From an uncultured Muribaculaceae bacterium (GTDB taxonomy: Bacteria > Bacteroidota > Bacteroidia > Bacteroidales > Muribaculaceae): a stretch of 46,024 nt of DNA. The translations under genes and the position numbers were made by a program. Below the pieces are notes generated by a model. It did not search any database, had not been told where the DNA came from, and was given only the letters and a program-made list of their open reading frames with translations. Shown in pieces: positions 1 to 8,741 of the stretch. The DNA lies in contig CALUMJ010000016.1 of assembly GCA_944321715.1 (NCBI GenBank), positions 1 through 46,024 of the forward strand, read 5' to 3'. The stretch's first letter is position 1, and each line of letters begins with the position of its first letter.

Positions 1-477
1 TTTGTCGTCGTGAATGACACTCCACAGCCGGTATGTGCAAGCGGCTCCATGTGCGAGGTGCTTAACGTGGGTGGCTATGTAGTGTGGCGGATATAGCGTG
101 TCGCTGTCGATGCACACGTGATATTTGCCACGGGCGGTGTCGAGTCCGCATTGGCGCGCATGGCCGGGGCTTTGTCGGTGTTCGTTGTAATAAGTAACTC
201 CGACGCGTTTCAGCAGTTGCTCGGTGGCATCGGTCGAATTGTTGTTGACAACGATTATCTCGATGGGGAAAGGGCAAATATTGTCGGTCAGTGACCACAG
301 GCAGCCCAGAATGTGCGATTCCTCGTTGTGCGCAATTGCTACGACCGAACACAGTGGCTCATCGTGCGCAAGCCGCTGGTTGATGTCATTGATTTTGTCG
401 GCTATCTCTTGTATAACATGTTGCGGAAATTCTTTTACCGGGCGGTCGAAAACCGTTAGATACTTGCTATACCACAT
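1..477 (-). CDS. Glycosyltransferase family 2 protein, N-terminal part (cut by window edge)
   Basis: The minus-strand frame is open from an ATG at 477 to the first base of the window, so only the first 159 residues are present. After about 37 residues the segment shows a GT-A nucleotide-sugar fold: a first beta strand followed by AHNEE (the usual A.NE entry motif), then EIIVVNNNSTDAT and, around residue 125, CIDSDTLYPP, a DxD-type metal and nucleotide-sugar binding motif. Family 2 enzymes transfer a sugar from an activated donor to a glycan or lipid acceptor at the cytoplasmic face of the membrane. The acceptor cannot be told from this fragment. A TAnnTTTG match lies about 35 bp upstream, and a hairpin separates it from the DUF262 operon, so it is probably its own transcription unit. 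Confidence 0.85.
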   Translation of the reverse strand, partial: MWYSKYLTVFDRPVKEFPQHVIQEIADKINDINQRLAHDEPLCSVVAIAHNEESHILGCLWSLTDNICPFPIEIIVVNNNSTDATEQLLKRVGVTYYNEHRQSPGHARQCGLDTARGKYHVCIDSDTLYPPHYIATHVKHLAHGAACTYRLWSVIHDDK

Positions 478-511
478 GCGATTGATAATTTTTGTGGGTT
501 TGATTTGACAG

Positions 512-519
512 CAAATATA
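512..519 (-). promoter_or_regulatory. Candidate -7 promoter element for the glycosyltransferase gene
   Basis: On the minus strand this reads TATATTTG, matching the Bacteroidota -7 consensus TAnnTTTG, 34 bp before the ATG at 477. A TTTG (plus-strand CAAA at 544-547) lies 24 bp further upstream, a little farther than the usual 19-21 bp. Confidence 0.4.
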
Positions 520-582
520 GCGAAATATAGCGAAAGTCGAGAGCAAAACAGATTGTTTTTGTCTGGTGACGGGTATCAAACG

Positions 583-619
583 AAAATGGGCTGACCTTGC
601 AATGAGGTTGGCCCATTTT
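583..619 (-). terminator. Hairpin terminator after the DUF262 operon
   Basis: AAAATGGGC pairs perfectly with GCCCATTTT and the stem continues through GACC/GGTT with wobble pairs, giving about 14 bp around a short loop. It lies about 60 bp beyond the stop of the last DUF262 gene and before the glycosyltransferase start. The T tract is short, so termination strength is uncertain. Confidence 0.6.
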
Positions 620-676
620 CATACTTTCGGTGAAATATTTATCGAACAGAAATAAAATCAAGCGTGAAAACTATTC

Positions 677-3127
677 TCAAAGTGTATGGGATTGTTCAAA
701 TTCGTCAATTACTTTGTTGATAAAGTCAACTGCGACTTCAACTAAATCCTTGTCTTCTGATTGACAGAGCGCATAATTGCCTTCGTATGGTATTAATTTT
801 TCCTGCAATGAAGGTGAAAGTCGGCTGTACGTTTCTACTGGCAATAGCCATTCCCACTCGTTAAAATCCATCTCAAAGATGATTTTGTCCCAACCGTTGG
901 GAAATTCATTGATAAGTATGCCACTTTTGTAAGCAAACTGCCCGGAATACTCCATGCGCCTTTTTTCGCGATATTTTGCGAACCTGCCTACTCTGCGTAC
1001 CACAGCATTGGCCATTGGGCAAACCTGATAGGCGTTGTTTAACGGCCGACTCGAAAAACTGTGAATGGCTATCATGTCCAGATTTTCCCACGGCTTCATC
1101 ATGGCGAAATAGAAAGGTGCTTGGTTGGCATCTTTTCGCCAATACACTTGTGCAGCAAGCACGTCGGAATATTTCAACATATAATACAGCACCGAATGCC
1201 GGTCGGTCGGCATTTGCTGAGCGACGATGGCTGCAAGGTCGCCAACTTGTGAAAAAGCCTCCACATAACGTCTCATCCAACTGTCGAGCGGCGAGGGCGT
1301 ATCATATTTCTTGCGGAAGTGTACCATCCAACGAGGCGTTCCTCTAAACTCACTGCCGAGAAATACAGCTTTGCCATAGGCACAGTTGCGCACTTCGATT
1401 CCCTTATATCCCAATGCCAAGAACAGTTGTACTTTAGTCAAAGCTGGAGCTTGGATGAAAGCAGTCGCTGCGTTCCATACCTTTGCGCAATAAGCATCGT
1501 CGTCCATGCATTTTTCCAGCACAGAGGCAAATGCCTGTAAGTTCCCGTATGTTAAAGGCAAGTCCTCAAGTTTCCAAACTAATTCCATGACCTTCGGATT
1601 GTTGTAATATTTCAGTTTTGATTTTTCCCGAAGTGCATATTCATCTTTCAGTGCCAGTTTTTCCAACGAAACCAGTGGGTCGGCATCAAGGAGTAGAGCT
1701 TCAAAGAAACGGAAGTATTGTGCCATTTCGCTGACTCTGATTTGAGGAGAAATATTCACGTTGGCCGTATCGAAATAATTGTGTTCATACAGGTAATTCC
1801 TGCAAAAGCGCACGTAATTAATCAATCGCCTATCGGCCACGAATGTTTTGTATTTCGTGCAGTAGGACAATATGGCGAACAGAAGAATGTGATTTGCCGA
1901 GAAATTGCCAGTGTTGCAGGCCGCTTCAAATAGGTCGGTATTGTCATCAAACAGGCGTATTTTACCACATTCCTCGGCATCTGCTGTGAATACAGCTCTG
2001 AAAAACCGGTGAATGTTTCCGTTTGCAGTATCGATTTCATGCAAAGTGTCGAGTGTGTCAAACAGCATGGCGCGGAACTCCTTATTATCTTCATACACCT
2101 CTCGCACCGTGTTCCAAAGCCCTGCCTTGTATTCCTCGGCATTAAGGGTTTGGTTATTAGGAAGCATAAAGAAAAACAAGCGAGTAAGATTATTGAAGAA
2201 ATTCATGAACGTATCGTCTATTTTGGGATACGGCACTAATTCTCTGTTGTCCTTGTCTGTGCTCAAATAATTTTGATAGGCAATTTTCCAAAACACATCG
2301 TTCCATTCGTGTTCCATCGAATACGAGAAACGTTCCTTTTCCTGCTTGTCGCAGTGTTCAACCATGTCGGTGAAACTGGCTTTCCAATTCTCAAAAGTGG
2401 TCAGTTCTTTGCCCCGGGCATTCATTTTCACATACAGTCCATCGGTCAGGTTGTATTGTTCCATGTCCAGTACATCGAAAGTGATGCACCGTTTCGATGT
2501 GTCGTAAAGATTTTCAAGCATCGTTTGCTTATGCGAGCAGTAAGGCTCGTTATCCATCATTTCCTCCATGAACGAAAGCATCTGCATCATAGCCTTTACC
2601 GTGGGGTCGGACTGCATATTGTGGTCATACCAGTATTTCTTCTCAATCTGCGAGGTCAACCGGCAGCCCGGTTCCGTGTGCATATTGGTGAGTTTTTGGC
2701 AAAAGCGTCCAGAACTGATACGGGCCTTATAGGTGAACTTGGCAAGCTCATTCATACGGTTTAAAAAGTTTTTTTGTTCTTCGCCGTCTATCGTTGGTGC
2801 ATTCTTCTGCAACAGCATCCAGTGGAGCAGGAACAACGTAGTCAACCGTTGTTGCCCATCGAGCGGAAGGAAAGGGGCGTCACTGTTGATGACCTCATTG
2901 TTCCCAAAACTCTCCCTACCGCCATACACGAAATCGAGGTGGCAAGGTAGCCCATCGGGTAGCAGTGCATTCATTAGCTTCACTACAAAATCGTTGCGTT
3001 TCTCTGCTTCTTTTTCGGTCAAAGCTCGCCCTTGTACATAATCCCTTTGAATGACAGGAACCTGTATGTTGTGTTTCTTCAGAAATTCAAAGAAAGAAAC
3101 TGTTTTGTTATCATTTGGTGTACTCAT
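677..3127 (-). CDS. DUF262 domain protein without nuclease domain, second gene of a DUF262 pair
   Basis: An 816-residue protein. The N-terminus carries the DUF262 (ParB/sulfiredoxin-like, GmrS-N) signatures IQRDYVQGR at residues 26-34 and DGQQRLTTLF starting at residue 90. A third family-like block, MNARGKELTTFE, follows around residue 235. In characterised relatives (GmrSD, SspE) this domain binds and hydrolyses nucleotides and senses modified DNA. The remaining 550 or so residues match nothing I can name, and no HNH/DUF1524 motif (EHIxPQ) is visible, so nuclease activity must come from a partner if it exists. Its ATG lies inside the end of the upstream DUF262-DUF1524 gene (17-bp overlap in another frame), which implies translational coupling and joint function. 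A defence role is inferred from family and pairing, not shown. Confidence 0.8.
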   Translation of the reverse strand: MSTPNDNKTVSFFEFLKKHNIQVPVIQRDYVQGRALTEKEAEKRNDFVVKLMNALLPDGLPCHLDFVYGGRESFGNNEVINSDAPFLPLDGQQRLTTLFLLHWMLLQKNAPTIDGEEQKNFLNRMNELAKFTYKARISSGRFCQKLTNMHTEPGCRLTSQIEKKYWYDHNMQSDPTVKAMMQMLSFMEEMMDNEPYCSHKQTMLENLYDTSKRCITFDVLDMEQYNLTDGLYVKMNARGKELTTFENWKASFTDMVEHCDKQEKERFSYSMEHEWNDVFWKIAYQNYLSTDKDNRELVPYPKIDDTFMNFFNNLTRLFFFMLPNNQTLNAEEYKAGLWNTVREVYEDNKEFRAMLFDTLDTLHEIDTANGNIHRFFRAVFTADAEECGKIRLFDDNTDLFEAACNTGNFSANHILLFAILSYCTKYKTFVADRRLINYVRFCRNYLYEHNYFDTANVNISPQIRVSEMAQYFRFFEALLLDADPLVSLEKLALKDEYALREKSKLKYYNNPKVMELVWKLEDLPLTYGNLQAFASVLEKCMDDDAYCAKVWNAATAFIQAPALTKVQLFLALGYKGIEVRNCAYGKAVFLGSEFRGTPRWMVHFRKKYDTPSPLDSWMRRYVEAFSQVGDLAAIVAQQMPTDRHSVLYYMLKYSDVLAAQVYWRKDANQAPFYFAMMKPWENLDMIAIHSFSSRPLNNAYQVCPMANAVVRRVGRFAKYREKRRMEYSGQFAYKSGILINEFPNGWDKIIFEMDFNEWEWLLPVETYSRLSPSLQEKLIPYEGNYALCQSEDKDLVEVAVDFINKVIDEFEQSHTL

Positions 3128-5117
3128 AGTATGTTGTTTTTAAGTCGTTCAAATAATTTTTCCGGTCAGCTTTCGTCCAGAAGCGCAAATCTGTGATATT
3201 TGATGCGTATTCCTTGTTGAATACTTTCCATGTTCCCATAAACACGTATGCACCTTGTTGCCCCATCGAGCGGTCGTATTCCGACGAAAGCCTTTGCAAG
3301 ATGCAGCGTTTGGTATTAATAAGCCCATTGCCAAGACGTATGTTGGTGAGATTGTCAACTAACGCCAAATTGCTGACACGGTGAAGCTCCCTCTCGTCAA
3401 TATCTGCCAGCTCGTCGAAGTGCCGGTCTATCACTTTCATTTTTTGTGAATAGGCATATTCATTTGCGCTATATCGTTCGGACTTTTCTTTCAGGGATTT
3501 CTTTGCTGCTTCTGATTTCTTTTCACATTCTTCCTCGGCCGATAGGTGCAATACGGTGCGCAACTCGTTCACAGCCTCACGTAGGTCGTTATCGTCTAAG
3601 TCCTCATCGCTCAACTCTGCGCACTTGTCTTTGAACCATCGGCAGCGTGTGGCAAAATCTATGTCCTCGTCATGCAAGTGTTGCGGATGGATGTGTTCCA
3701 AGCTCGGCGTAATATCCTGGTAGAATTTGAACGGGAAATAAGCCCTGTCTTGCCCGTGCTTCATTGTCAAATTTACGTTGTACACCAACAGAATATTGAC
3801 AATCTCATTATTGAACTTTCCGTAATACAGGTTCTCGAACGAGGCTTCTTCGGGGTTGTCAAATTTGTTTACATCAAACCTAATCAGTTTGCCGATTCTT
3901 TCTTTTTTCAGCAAATTGATATACGTGGGGCGGTCGTTGAGTTTGAAATCGGAAACTAAGACGCGCAAGGTTTTCAAACGTTCTTGGACGTTCTGGTTTA
4001 GCAAAGTGAGATACAAGCCAGTGAGGTGATACAGTTCCCTGTCCTCAAACCAACTGCGGAAGATGGCGAATGTGTCTTGAATGTTTATCCATAGTTCCTT
4101 CACCACGTCTTGGTATGGACGGTTCTTCTGCCGTTCACGCTCTATGTATTTGTTAAAGACGAGATAATCAAAATCCTTGTCTGTTTCTGGCGTTTTCACT
4201 TCGAGTCCGTGCTTTTCTTGTAGCTCTTTTGCCACAAACGACAGCACGATATCGATGCGCGAGGCTTTGCCATATTTTTGTGGGAAAAGCATCGACCACA
4301 TGAAATCATCCTGCAATGCCTTTTCCATGTCGTCCCATTCCATAGCCATTCGGAATGTGATTTGTTTCATCTCGGCTCTTCTGTCAGCTTCGTAAACATC
4401 GCACTGGAATAGCAATGCCTTGATAAGTTCTGTGGCCGTCAGTGGTGTTCTCCCGTAATTTAGGCGTTTGAATGTGTCGATGGAATTGCCATCGGAAAGT
4501 TCATCTTCATACCATATAAAGCGGACATCGCGTTGCTCGTCGTTTTTGTCATCATGCGTTTCATAAAATGGCTTGTCACCTTTCAGATAATCATCATTGA
4601 GTAGCACATCCTCCATGAATCCTTTAATTTTTGGACGCTGCTTCTTTTTTTCTTCAAACCATTCTTTTATGCTTACCATTGCCTGCTTCATGTAAAAGTA
4701 GTCGGGATTGTCTTTCATTGCCTCGTCGGGGAGTGACTGCAAGTCAGAGTATGAAAGCCGCCCATTCTCCCATAGATATTTGTCTTCTCCTTTTTTAACG
4801 GCACGTTCATAGCGCAGCTCAAATGTTTCCTCCATTTCTAAATATTCCATGAGAAGGAAAAGGGTCGTCAATCGTTGTTGGCCATCGATGACATCAAAAA
4901 CAACCATCCCATCGTTTGACAAGCTATTATTCTTGCAAACAACCAATGGTTGGAGGCAATAAAACTGTTTCTCTTGTGTGCGGCTTTGTTTAAATTCAAA
5001 CAAATCGTCTAATAAGTCTGTAACCTGCTTGGATTCCCAACGGTAGCCGCGTTGGTAATAGGGAATATTGAAGTGCATTCCTATCAAATCCCCAAGGTGA
5101 GCTAATTTTAGATTCAT
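3111..5117 (-). CDS. DUF262-DUF1524 (GmrSD/SspE-like) putative modification-dependent nuclease
   Basis: A 668-residue protein with the two-domain arrangement of GmrSD type IV restriction enzymes and SspE. The N-terminal DUF262 domain has YQRGYRW at residues 21-27, DGQQRLTTLFLL from residue 78, and a later LNYGRTPLTATELIKA block. The C-terminal DUF1524 domain has the His-Me finger (HNH) motif LEHIHPQ at about residues 473-479, then VSNLALVDNLTNIRLGN, the conserved helix in which Asn/Leu-rich residues pack near the active site. Relatives use NTP hydrolysis by DUF262 to license cleavage or nicking of DNA with modified bases or a phosphorothioate backbone. It is the first gene of a minus-strand pair and overlaps the next DUF262 gene by 17 bp. 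No dnd/ssp or methylase gene is in the window. Target and modification are unknown. Confidence 0.85.
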   Translation of the reverse strand: MNLKLAHLGDLIGMHFNIPYYQRGYRWESKQVTDLLDDLFEFKQSRTQEKQFYCLQPLVVCKNNSLSNDGMVVFDVIDGQQRLTTLFLLMEYLEMEETFELRYERAVKKGEDKYLWENGRLSYSDLQSLPDEAMKDNPDYFYMKQAMVSIKEWFEEKKKQRPKIKGFMEDVLLNDDYLKGDKPFYETHDDKNDEQRDVRFIWYEDELSDGNSIDTFKRLNYGRTPLTATELIKALLFQCDVYEADRRAEMKQITFRMAMEWDDMEKALQDDFMWSMLFPQKYGKASRIDIVLSFVAKELQEKHGLEVKTPETDKDFDYLVFNKYIERERQKNRPYQDVVKELWINIQDTFAIFRSWFEDRELYHLTGLYLTLLNQNVQERLKTLRVLVSDFKLNDRPTYINLLKKERIGKLIRFDVNKFDNPEEASFENLYYGKFNNEIVNILLVYNVNLTMKHGQDRAYFPFKFYQDITPSLEHIHPQHLHDEDIDFATRCRWFKDKCAELSDEDLDDNDLREAVNELRTVLHLSAEEECEKKSEAAKKSLKEKSERYSANEYAYSQKMKVIDRHFDELADIDERELHRVSNLALVDNLTNIRLGNGLINTKRCILQRLSSEYDRSMGQQGAYVFMGTWKVFNKEYASNITDLRFWTKADRKNYLNDLKTTYYEYTK

Positions 5118-5952
5118 AATTATACAATATTAGTAAAGCGAGGTTGATTATATGGTTAAAAAATTTAAAGGAGTTTTTGCCGTATTCGTCAATTTGGGAT
5201 AACTTGAATACGTATAGGCATTACTGTTAGGGAAATTTAAAGTGTGCATAATCTATCATTAGCCAAGCACTTGACGTAGGCTGGCTTTTCACGGCTGTGC
5301 AGTTATTCAATGGTAAGCAGATATGAGAAAAGGACACAGCTAACACTTTTCTCTCATCTACTTAGTTAGGCTTTGAAAAATGCCTTGGAGCTCAAATAAG
5401 GGAAAGCAGCCCATGTCCTCGGTGGAAGATACAGAACACGCTTCGCCTGATTATTGAGAACTCCTTAGTTGAATTTCCAGATTTAACCAAGTTTCAATAA
5501 TTGGCTTGCAAGTTTTGCAATATATGTCTTTTGCGGCAGTTTGTCGCACTGGTACGCTTGCCGCAAAATTTGTTCTTTCACAAATTTACGCAAAAAAACG
5601 GCACTGTCAAAACAAACCTGCAAAAAACAATAACACCGTCTGCAATCTTTAGGCTTATTGAATTTTCCGCAAAATAACGCGCCACCTGTGCCAAATCGCA
5701 GCACAACAGATGTGCAGGTGGTTACGGTCATTTAAAGTGACATATCAGGCTGGCTTGCTCCCTCCCACAAGCTACACGCGGGTTAAATGAATTGGCTGTT
5801 ATGGGAACAATTTCTTGCATATTCACAGATATTCTGTCTATGTACCTTTCACGACTGAGCAAATTTTGATGAGGTTGAGCAGAGATTGGTAGGAGGGGAG
5901 GTGGAAATACCGATAATTATGCGTAAATTTGCAGTAGGTTTTACAAGACTTT
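5118..5952. other. 835-bp hairpin-rich spacer without a convincing gene
   Basis: This is the longest gene-free stretch in the window, between the DUF262 operon (leaving leftward) and phoH (rightward). It holds several inverted repeats: AGCC(A)AGC...GCTGGCT with a short T run at 5261-5287; GAGAAAAG/CTTTTCTC at 5325-5353; TTGCGGCA/TGCCGCAA at 5532-5567; and a 10-bp stem CCACCTGTGC/GTGCAGGTGG (two wobble pairs) at 5682-5721. The only open frame of note is an 82-codon, Cys-rich minus-strand one at 5483-5731, which has no recognisable family or clear promoter. The stretch could be a remnant of a mobile or repeated element, a structured RNA, or a long leader. I cannot tell which. Confidence 0.5.
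5924..5931 (+). promoter_or_regulatory. -7 promoter element of the phoH-purC-menG unit
   Basis: TAAATTTG is a full match to the Bacteroidota -7 consensus TAnnTTTG, 21 bp before the phoH ATG. No clear TTTG -33 element lies at the expected distance. Confidence 0.5.
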
Positions 5953-6933
5953 ATGATAGAACGCATAATAATTGTCGATAGTGTTGACCCAGTTACATTC
6001 TATGGGGTCAATAATGCGAATATACAATTAATACGCAATCTTTTCCCCAAGTTGCGCATAGCCGCCCGTGGCAGCATTATAAAGGTAATCGGCGATGATG
6101 TGGAAACATCGCTTTTCGAGCAGACTGTGAAGAAGCTCGAAGAGTATTGTGCCAAATATAACAAGTTGCCACAAGAGGTGATTATTGACATGGTGCGAGG
6201 CGAGTCGCCCAAGGAAGTCAAGCTCGACGATGTAATCATATATGGTGTCAACGGCAAACCTATTGTAGGCCGCACACCCAACCAGCAACGCCTCGTAAAG
6301 GCATTTCAGGAAAACGACCTCACATTTGCCCTCGGTCCTGCTGGAACGGGCAAGACCTACGTTGCCATAGCCCTTGCTGTGAAAGCGTTGAAAAACAGGC
6401 AGGTGAAGAAAATAATATTGTCGCGCCCTGCTGTCGAGGCCGGCGAGAAGCTCGGGTTTCTGCCAGGCGACATGAAAGAAAAAATCGACCCCTATCTGCA
6501 ACCGTTATACGACGCGCTCGAAGACATGATTCCGGCCGTGAAGCTCAAGGAATACATGGAATCGAACGTGATACAGATTGCTCCGCTTGCATTCATGCGC
6601 GGGCGCACGTTGAGCGATGCGGTGATAGTCCTTGACGAAGCTCAAAACACCACGGCACACCAGATAAAGATGTTCATGACACGCCTCGGGCTTGGCTCGA
6701 AGATGATAGTCACTGGCGACATCACGCAAATCGACCTGCCACGCACGGTGACTTCGGGCCTTGTGCAGGCGTTGGGCATATTGCGTGGAGTGCCTGGCAT
6801 AGGGCGAGTGGAATTTGACCGCCGCGACATCGTGCGCCACCGGCTTGTGCAACTCATCGTGGAGGCTTATCAAAACTATGACGAGGAGCAGCGCGAAGCC
6901 GCAGCCCGAGCCAAAGAGGAACAGAAAGAATAA
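5953..6933 (+). CDS. phoH: PhoH family ATPase (YbeZ-like)
   Basis: A 326-residue protein, the usual length of PhoH/YbeZ. It has an N-terminal KH-like region (about residues 15-110), then a P-loop ATPase with Walker A GPAGTGKT at residues 128-135 and Walker B VIVLDEAQ at 224-231, followed by TGDITQIDLP, a family hallmark. PhoH proteins are cytoplasmic ATPases linked to RNA metabolism and ribosome maturation through the partner YbeY, which is not in this window. It is the first gene of a plus-strand series, 24 bp before purC. The ATG at 5953 is preceded by a good -7 element and gives the expected N-terminus. Confidence 0.95.
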   Translation: MIERIIIVDSVDPVTFYGVNNANIQLIRNLFPKLRIAARGSIIKVIGDDVETSLFEQTVKKLEEYCAKYNKLPQEVIIDMVRGESPKEVKLDDVIIYGVNGKPIVGRTPNQQRLVKAFQENDLTFALGPAGTGKTYVAIALAVKALKNRQVKKIILSRPAVEAGEKLGFLPGDMKEKIDPYLQPLYDALEDMIPAVKLKEYMESNVIQIAPLAFMRGRTLSDAVIVLDEAQNTTAHQIKMFMTRLGLGSKMIVTGDITQIDLPRTVTSGLVQALGILRGVPGIGRVEFDRRDIVRHRLVQLIVEAYQNYDEEQREAAARAKEEQKE

Positions 6934-6957
6934 CAATCATTCAATATACTTATTATC

Positions 6958-7911
6958 ATGGCTAAAACTCTAACACACACCGATTTTAATTTCCCAGGTC
7001 AAAAGAGCGTGTATCATGGGAAAGTACGTGACGTGTATAATATCAACGATGATTTGCTGGTGATGATTGCCACCGACCGCATCTCGGCATTCGACGTGAT
7101 TCTGCCTAAAGGCATCCCGTTCAAAGGGCAGGTGCTTAACCAAATTGCCGCAACATTTCTTGATGCGACTGCCGACATCGTGCCTAACTGGAAAATAGCC
7201 ACTCCCGACCCGATGGTGACAGTGGGGCTGAAGTGCGAGGGCTTCCGCGTGGAGATGATTATCCGCGGTTATCTCACAGGTAGCGCATGGCGCGAATACG
7301 CCGCTGGTTGCCGAGAACTGTGTGGCGTGAAACTGCTTGATGGAATGCGTGAAAATGAGAAATTCCCCGAACCGATTATCACTCCGACCACTAAAGCCGA
7401 TGCAGGCCACGATGAGAACATCTCGAAAGAGGAAATCATTGCCAAGGGAATAGTGAGCCGCGAGGATTATGAACAGATGGAACAGTACACCCGTGCCCTC
7501 TTTGCCCGTGGCACCGAGATGGCCGCCGAGAAAGGACTCATTCTCGTTGACACGAAATATGAGTTTGGCAAGCGTGACGGCAAGGTGATACTTATAGATG
7601 AAATTCACACACCAGACTCGTCGCGCTACTTCTACAGCGAAGGTTATCAAGAAAGATTTGAGAAAGGCGAGCCACAAAAGCAGTTATCAAAGGAGTTTGT
7701 GCGCCAGTGGCTGATTGACCATGATTTCATGGGCAAGCCGGGGCAGACTGTGCCTGAGATGACCGACGAATATTGCCAGTCGGTGTCGGCTCGTTACATC
7801 GAGCTGTATGAACATATCGTGGGCAAGAAGTTTGTTCCTGCAGAAGATGGCGACATCACGGCTCGTATTGAGAAGAATGTATTGAATGTGTTGGCTCAAA
7901 TAGGCAAATAA
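6958..7911 (+). CDS. purC: Phosphoribosylaminoimidazole-succinocarboxamide synthase
   Basis: A 317-residue SAICAR synthetase catalysing the ATP-dependent joining of aspartate to CAIR in de novo purine synthesis, in the cytoplasm. Visible family features are the N-terminal YHGKVRDVY and [12 protein letters not shown] blocks (ATP and substrate binding), [14 protein letters not shown], and [27 protein letters not shown] near residue 205-230. The length and inserts match the longer (about 310-residue) PurC type rather than the 237-residue E. coli type. It sits 24 bp after phoH, probably in the same transcript, and 89 bp before menG. Confidence 0.96.
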
Positions 7912-8000
7912 CATTTAATAAAGAGTGATATAGGATAGTGTGCCGGAATATATTTGATTTCGGCACACATATATTTGTTGCACAATAAACCAATGCTATT

Positions 8001-8741
8001 GTGGATTACAAAGCAGAAAAAATAACACCCTACAACGACACGGAGAGCAAGACGGGGCAAGTGAGGCAGATGTTTGACTCGATTGCACCGGCGTATGATT
8101 TCATGAACCGTGCCATGACTATGGGGATTGACAAGTGGTGGCGGCGCAAGGCGGTGAAGATGGTAGGGGAGTATGCTCCAGCTAAAATACTCGATGTGGC
8201 AACGGGAACCGGCGACTTCGCCATACAGATGTACAAAACATTGCGCCCGTCAAATGGCATAGTAGGTATCGACTTGTCGCGGCAGATGCTTGATGTAGCC
8301 GTTGGCAAGGTTGATAAAGCTGGAATTGCAGACCATTTCGATTTCGGCGAGGGCGATTGCATGGCATTGGGTTTCAGTGATGGCACGTTTGATGCCGTGA
8401 CCGTGGCTTTTGGGGTTAGGAATTTTGAACATCTTGAGCAAGGTTATGCCGAGATGTATCGCGTATTGTGTCGTGGTGGCGTGCTGTGTGTCCTTGAACT
8501 TTCCACGCCCACCAATCGTTTCATACGGTCGCTTTACGACCTTTATACCCGCACGCTTATCCCGTTGGTGGGTCGCATGGTTTCGCACGACCGCCGTGCA
8601 TATAGCTACTTGCCCGAGAGCATTGCGGCCGTTCCTCAAGGCGATGAAATGTGCGGCATTATGCGCCGCGTGGGCTTTAAAGAGTGCCGTTTTGTGCGCA
8701 TGACCTTCGGCACATGCACCATCTACTTAGGCGAGAAATGA
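8001..8741 (+). CDS. menG: Demethylmenaquinone methyltransferase (UbiE/MenG)
   Basis: A 246-residue class I SAM-dependent methyltransferase that methylates demethylmenaquinone in the last step of menaquinone synthesis. Motif I is ILDVATGTGDFAI near residue 63-75, followed by GIDLSRQML, and the family-specific FGVRNFEHLEQGYAEMYRVL block lies in the middle. MFDSIAPAYDFMNRAMTMGIDKWWRR near the N-terminus is the UbiE/MenG signature. Translation starts at a GTG (8001); the nearby ATG at 7993 is in another frame. Menaquinone as respiratory quinone fits an anaerobic Bacteroidales host. It closes the phoH-purC-menG series and faces dnaK across a bidirectional terminator. Confidence 0.95.
   Translation: MDYKAEKITPYNDTESKTGQVRQMFDSIAPAYDFMNRAMTMGIDKWWRRKAVKMVGEYAPAKILDVATGTGDFAIQMYKTLRPSNGIVGIDLSRQMLDVAVGKVDKAGIADHFDFGEGDCMALGFSDGTFDAVTVAFGVRNFEHLEQGYAEMYRVLCRGGVLCVLELSTPTNRFIRSLYDLYTRTLIPLVGRMVSHDRRAYSYLPESIAAVPQGDEMCGIMRRVGFKECRFVRMTFGTCTIYLGEK

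Follow-up and report, generated by a model that had tools for sequence, protein, structure and literature searches.

The 46,024-nucleotide stretch of DNA analyzed here (the window) is contig CALUMJ010000016.1 of an uncultured Muribaculaceae bacterium, listed as C16 in a 2.82 Mb assembly of 88 contigs that belongs to the same genus as genome G044. Near its start lie two consecutive minus-strand genes, A (3111-5117, 668 residues) and B (677-3127, 816 residues), which both encode proteins with a DUF262 domain and are arranged like the genes of GrwAB, a published two-protein GmrSD-like restriction system. The following features were assigned to the pair, with NTPase standing for nucleoside triphosphatase:

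3111..5117, minus strand: gene A (GrwA-like), 668 residues, with a DUF262 NTPase/sensor domain, a linker and a DUF1524-type His-Me nuclease
4407..5081, minus strand: DUF262 (GmrSD_N) domain of A, residues 13-237, with QRGY (22), DGQQR (78-82) and FKRLN (216-220)
3342..3695, minus strand: His-Me nuclease core of A, with H475 (3693-3695), N583 (3369-3371) and N592 (3342-3344)
677..3127, minus strand: gene B (GrwB-like), 816 residues, with a DUF262 domain and a long C-terminal region without nuclease motif
2372..3088, minus strand: DUF262 domain of B, residues 14-252, with QRDY (27), DGQQR (90-94) and YVKMN (232-236)
1568..2407, minus strand: helical region of B, residues ~241-520, weakly like the part of SspE/DndI that follows the DUF262 domain
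680..1417, minus strand: alpha/beta C-terminal region of B, residues ~571-816, without known match; conservation within B is lowest over the last ~150 residues of this region
3111..3127, minus strand: overlap, 17 base pairs (bp) long, in which A ends and B begins, against a median of -4 bp in related pairs

Motifs and domains of the two proteins

An earlier note on this DNA had described two genes overlapping by 17 bp, DUF262 hallmarks in both proteins, an EHIHPQ nuclease motif only in the upstream one and a second protein of 816 residues with about 550 unassigned residues, all of which was borne out. The overlap likely results in translational coupling. The Pfam family GmrSD_N/DUF262 (PF03235, cut-off 33.2) is matched by both A (E=6.6e-30, 105.2 bits) and B (E=2e-15, 57.9 bits), and the EHIHPQ motif is found at residue 474 of A and nowhere in B. 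The conservation of these elements was followed in an alignment of the window protein A (P0001) with 73 relatives, complete open reading frames (ORFs) of 540-699 residues taken from named-genome and viral-contig loci. H475, N583 and N592 as well as DGQQR are invariant in 74/74 proteins, the spacing between the two asparagines equals 9 in 62/62, and GmrSD_C (DUF1524) is matched at E≤0.001 by 49/74, the window protein not being among these 49. Of the two histidines that the earlier note had named for mutation, H475 and H477, only H475 is invariant; position 477 is occupied by Y, S, C or A among the relatives. Based on this motif set and alignment, the His-Me nuclease motifs are intact in A and missing from B.

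In B, the DGQQR residues D90, Q92, Q93 and R94 are invariant in 73/73 aligned proteins and G91 is present in at least 90%. A check against the GrwAB motifs identified QR, DGQQR and FxxxN in A, and QR and DGQQR with YxxxN instead of FxxxN in B. Residues 241-816 of B (576 residues) yielded no Pfam family at E≤0.01, and each Pfam family was matched by at most one of 73 aligned B C-termini. The first part of this region weakly resembles SspE/DndI.

Pairing of A and B across genomes

A scan with the B alignment provided the best 80 of 91 relatives in named genomes and 13 in viral contigs, 93 loci together. An A ORF lies directly upstream of B on the same strand in 89 of them (76/80 named, 13/13 viral), while three are cut by a contig end and one is a natural A-B fusion (L155, Victivallis); a B gene with upstream room and no A did not occur among the 93 loci. 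Most of the A ORFs (81/89) are long and uncut, and the remaining eight are shorter than 480 residues or cut by a contig end. The A/B junction is overlapping in 62 of the 89 pairs, with the median of -4 bp referring to mechanical ORF starts. According to their titles, the 80 named loci span eight phylum-level groups, with 51 loci in Bacteroidota. Since these named loci overlap with the same-family genome set described below (e.g. L110 = G044:C21), the counts are not independent.

Among 247 Bacteroidota genomes, strong matches to A and to B (E≤1e-30 and 1e-20) were present in the same eight, own genome included, and 9/9 copies are adjacent in the order A-B. This count considers strong matches only, with at most 4 or 5 candidates scored per genome, so that weak lone copies are possible; the two pairs of the own genome are rows of the models, the seven other genomes are not. 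Homologues of the second gene occurring mostly without the first, which the earlier note had named as the outcome that would speak against a coupled system, are clearly not what either survey revealed.

The 198 genomes of the same family, again including the own genome, contain B relatives in 42 and A relatives in 72, many of the surplus A matches being short DUF262 matches. In a first count based on match coordinates (gap <2500), A was located directly upstream in 37/45 B places. For this count, three of 48 B rows were dropped as second pieces of one gene, only A rows judged relevant were entered, and a 409-residue ORF matched by both queries (G165:C65) was left out of the 37. The A profile added two more places, G102:C4 and G193:C1, where no P0001 match lies near B, yet an A-like ORF is found directly upstream (L228, L225). 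Further places comprise an A fragment beside B (G165:C124, L146), B at contig ends (G109 and G182), and A located ~4.5 kb and ~1.9 kb upstream of B (G175:C261 and G167:C31). The two proteins also co-diverge, with a Mantel r of 0.89 that is uncorrected for shared host ancestry. On the adjacency counts, chance neighbours were rejected as a label. The A-B pair is a fixed module, and with B relatives in 42/198 genomes it is common in this family.

Several individual loci depart from the usual layout. Natural single-frame A-B fusions are encoded by L155:2235-5666, from a Victivallis metagenome-assembled genome (1143 residues from the likely start), and by L083:3161-7642, from a same-family genome (1493 residues). 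At L085:5894-14170, A and B share a strand and are 4.5 kb apart with opposite-strand genes in between, two of which look like AbiE-type toxin-antitoxin genes by translation; at L086, the distance is 1.9 kb. The ORFs at L077:504-4938 (471 and 1101 residues) overlap by ~290 bases in different frames, which looks like a frameshifted copy. The viral-collection loci L170-L182, where the pair is present in 13/13 loci found with B, may represent provirus or phage-like carriage.

Known DUF262 systems and the putative function of the pair

Several DUF262 systems are available for comparison. GrwAB of V. cholerae, described in 2025 (PMC12137116; review PMC12409362), is a GmrSD-like type IV restriction system of two proteins; it requires both genes and targets modified phage DNA. 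It blocks Queuovirinae and Tevenvirinae, escapers carry changes in dpdA, and homologues are present in ~1% of genomes; DGQQR and H/N/N mutants are inactive, and the R86A exchange in GrwB abolishes defence (PMC12137116). The window pair shares with it an operon of two genes that opens with the nuclease gene (GrwB being encoded by the second), an A protein composed of DUF262, linker and DUF1524 with H/N/N and an N-N spacing of 9 (N521/N530 in GrwA), a B protein composed of DUF262 and a long C-terminus without known domains, and DGQQR at similar positions in both proteins (R82/R94 here, R81/R86 in GrwAB) (PMC12137116). It differs in its origin from another phylum (Bacteroidota), in the later position of the nuclease histidine (H475 vs H431) and in the occurrence of two divergent pairs in one genome (PMC12137116). 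As this architecture is already published, along with its gene order, the need for both genes and the modified-phage targets of GrwAB (PMC12137116) and with TgvAB and GmrSD-ECOR17 as kin, the pair does not qualify as the under-described system proposed earlier and is better viewed as a new, divergent member of the GrwAB kind, from another bacterial branch than Vibrio.

TgvAB likewise consists of two DUF262 proteins, only one with DUF1524, which are both required and target modified phages; its partner gene appears to come first, as judged from the text, and lies inside a type I restriction-modification operon (PMC11411939). According to the GrwAB authors, DUF262 is all that GrwB and TgvA have in common (PMC12137116). 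The TgvAB label was rejected because the gene order is reversed here and the neighbours are a glycosyltransferase gene and phoH rather than a type I restriction-modification operon. GmrSD-ECOR17 of E. coli also comprises two GmrS-like genes with a nuclease in only one, both needed against T-even phages and toxic when both are induced; here the likeness is one of description, the nuclease is called HNH, and GmrS1 precedes GmrSD2 (PMC12373910). GmrSD, BrxU, SspE and DndI are single proteins with the domain order of A, and DndI/SspE match the DUF262 fold of B. In these systems one protein is usually enough, whereas B lacks a nuclease motif and has another C-terminal region (PMC4619093, PMC10952713).

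Taken together, A and B quite probably constitute a GrwAB-like two-protein, modification-dependent (type IV) restriction system with A as effector and B as obligate partner, in agreement with the earlier suggestion of a coupled, type IV-like GmrSD system with a nuclease-free DUF262 partner. The features of GrwAB that can be read from sequence are present, except for YxxxN in place of FxxxN in B. The analysis itself covers gene order, overlap, motifs, near-absolute adjacency, co-divergence, natural fusions and presence or absence at one site; the need for both proteins and the modified-DNA targets would carry over from the GrwAB/TgvAB work, and we infer the heterodimer and the division of labour. 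In the proposed mechanism, the amounts of A and B would be coupled, and the two proteins most likely assemble into a complex. The DUF262 domain of A would bind and hydrolyze nucleoside triphosphates and take part in recognizing modified DNA, and cutting would fall to the His-Me (DUF1524-type) domain of the same protein. B would contribute a DUF262 domain with retained NTPase motif, a linker-like helical region and, in place of the nuclease, a different C-terminal region. Both DUF262 domains would have to read modified phage DNA and turn over nucleoside triphosphates before A cuts. By analogy with these relatives, the pair most likely destroys modified phage DNA. The analysis shows that the two-protein GmrSD-like architecture described from V. 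cholerae is strictly coupled across eight phylum-level groups, as seen among the best 80 of 91 relatives.

A number of points weigh against this assignment. The kinship to GrwAB is one of architecture and not of alignment with the Vibrio proteins GrwA and GrwB. The window protein A scores only 11.6 bits against GmrSD_C (E=0.26, Pfam cut-off 23), and DGQQR is missing from two related A ORFs, L048 (split in the annotation) and L063 (short). B carries YVKMN for the expected FxxxN, with Y in at least 90% of the 73 aligned B proteins and N236 in all, and the co-divergence of A and B lacks a correction for ancestry. Finally, no defence island was seen around the pair among the window genes examined (a subset of the window ORFs), and PADLOC matched 40 families in genes beside pairs and 49 in a random-region control.

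The strict A-B pairing would also suit a different role for B, namely that of a restraint that keeps A inactive in a toxin-antitoxin-like manner, frees it on infection and takes no part in cutting, a reading we rate as very improbable. Antitoxin genes usually precede toxin genes, and the nuclease gene stands first in this pair, which counts against B as restraint. GmrSD-type enzymes can be toxic, as is the ECOR17 pair when both genes are induced (PMC12373910). This toxicity arises with both induced together, however, and defence needs both genes in TgvAB, GrwAB and GmrSD-ECOR17 (PMC11411939, PMC12137116, PMC12373910). Moreover, B keeps its own invariant DGQQR, and the corresponding GrwB R86A exchange abolishes defence (PMC12137116).

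The essential NTPase motif of GrwB (PMC12137116) also speaks against a model in which A is the main sensor and B either shields it from phage inhibitors of GmrSD enzymes or widens the range of modifications read. This has been raised as a possibility for TgvA and the GrwAB complex (PMC11411939, PMC12137116), and each of the T4 internal proteins Ip1-3 blocks one type of GmrSD (PMC12373910). However, neither ECOR17 protein alone protects against any phage tested, including T2, T6 and T4 without ip2 and ip3, even though Ip3, the known inhibitor, is missing in that case (PMC12373910), and we regard the model as improbable.

Structural comparison bears on another alternative, which appears barely credible: that the pair senses host phosphorothioate marks like SspE/DndI and attacks unmarked DNA. 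SspE and DndI are the solved structures closest to B, and SspE ranks behind entry 20yv ('DUF262 domain-containing protein') for A, but the clear structural match concerns the common DUF262 domain. In addition, DndC (TIGR03183) was found in 0/13 pair-bearing genomes, own included, in a search for which 0/14 control genomes passed the cut-off, so that it has no positive control, and which did not extend to SspABCD; modification genes were not seen among the window neighbours of the pair. Dnd-kind phosphorothioate sensing by the pair is thus unlikely and was rejected as a label.

Within the favoured GrwAB-like reading, the question of what the second protein does narrows to its definable C-terminal region. 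One tentative and on balance unlikely proposal is that B is a GmrSD enzyme in which a reader of DNA modifications has replaced the nuclease domain: DUF262 and the helical linker would be kept, the region ~571-816 would touch modified bases, and the active unit would be an asymmetric heterodimer in which one half cuts and the other reads. If so, an arms race over the modification read would have left its trace in the weak conservation at the end of this region.

Genomic surroundings and mobility

The direct neighbours of the pair are phoH and a glycosyltransferase gene cut by the contig end. The wider surroundings are of housekeeping or metabolic character, with PhoH, PurC, UbiE and DnaK recognized by translation and ten further ORFs examined by Pfam, nine of which matched. 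A defence-island placement, which the earlier note had proposed to check, found no support in these genes, and PADLOC showed no clear excess beside related pairs. For the latter comparison, up to two genes on each side of the pair at 34 same-family loci (105 proteins) were set against 105 of 132 random-region same-family proteins at E≤1e-8, and the tallies, given for the first 25 families, count the members of each family rather than proteins with any match. Beside pairs, these were WYL, PDC-S48, DEDDh and Cas3c with four each, PifA, PDC-S20 and QatA with two each, and others single; in the control, mad3 and mad8 had two each, with others single. Since the control holds as many PADLOC families, no defence enrichment is claimed. 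Qat, Iet, Mko and WYL families do occur beside related pairs, and plasmid L046 carries WYL and QatA nearby.

The DEDDh and PDC-S48 rows stem from one recurrent neighbour gene. This DEDDh exonuclease-like gene is found by pairs at L050:7046-7540, L060:6981-7475, L068:1149-1556, L073:6156-6647 and L076:45-539, the last four being 96, 50, 58 and 58% identical to the copy of L050; an insertion hotspot is possible.

The own genome contains a second, divergent DUF262 pair on contig C8 (G000:C8 30548-34878; L005:6549-10879), encoding proteins of 620 and 823 residues in the same order with a 4 bp overlap and flanked by homologues of topoisomerase IV subunit A and MutS2, according to their translations. 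B relatives of the same type are directly preceded by an A-like ORF in G185, G015, G142, G174, G193 and G038, too. The site of the window pair is empty in one genus relative, as delimited by the following segment:

551..5900, no strand: segment missing at the same site in G125 (locus L212), the genus relative closest by PhoH identity

In G125 (PhoH 96% identical), the pair is missing and its two flanks (window 4-550 and 5901-8311) are found close to each other. phoH itself is present in 9/9 genomes of the genus, and in G044, G082 and G098, the three other members of the genus that have relatives of the pair, these are located on contigs other than that of phoH. The empty site and these placements indicate that the A-B pair is likely movable cargo.
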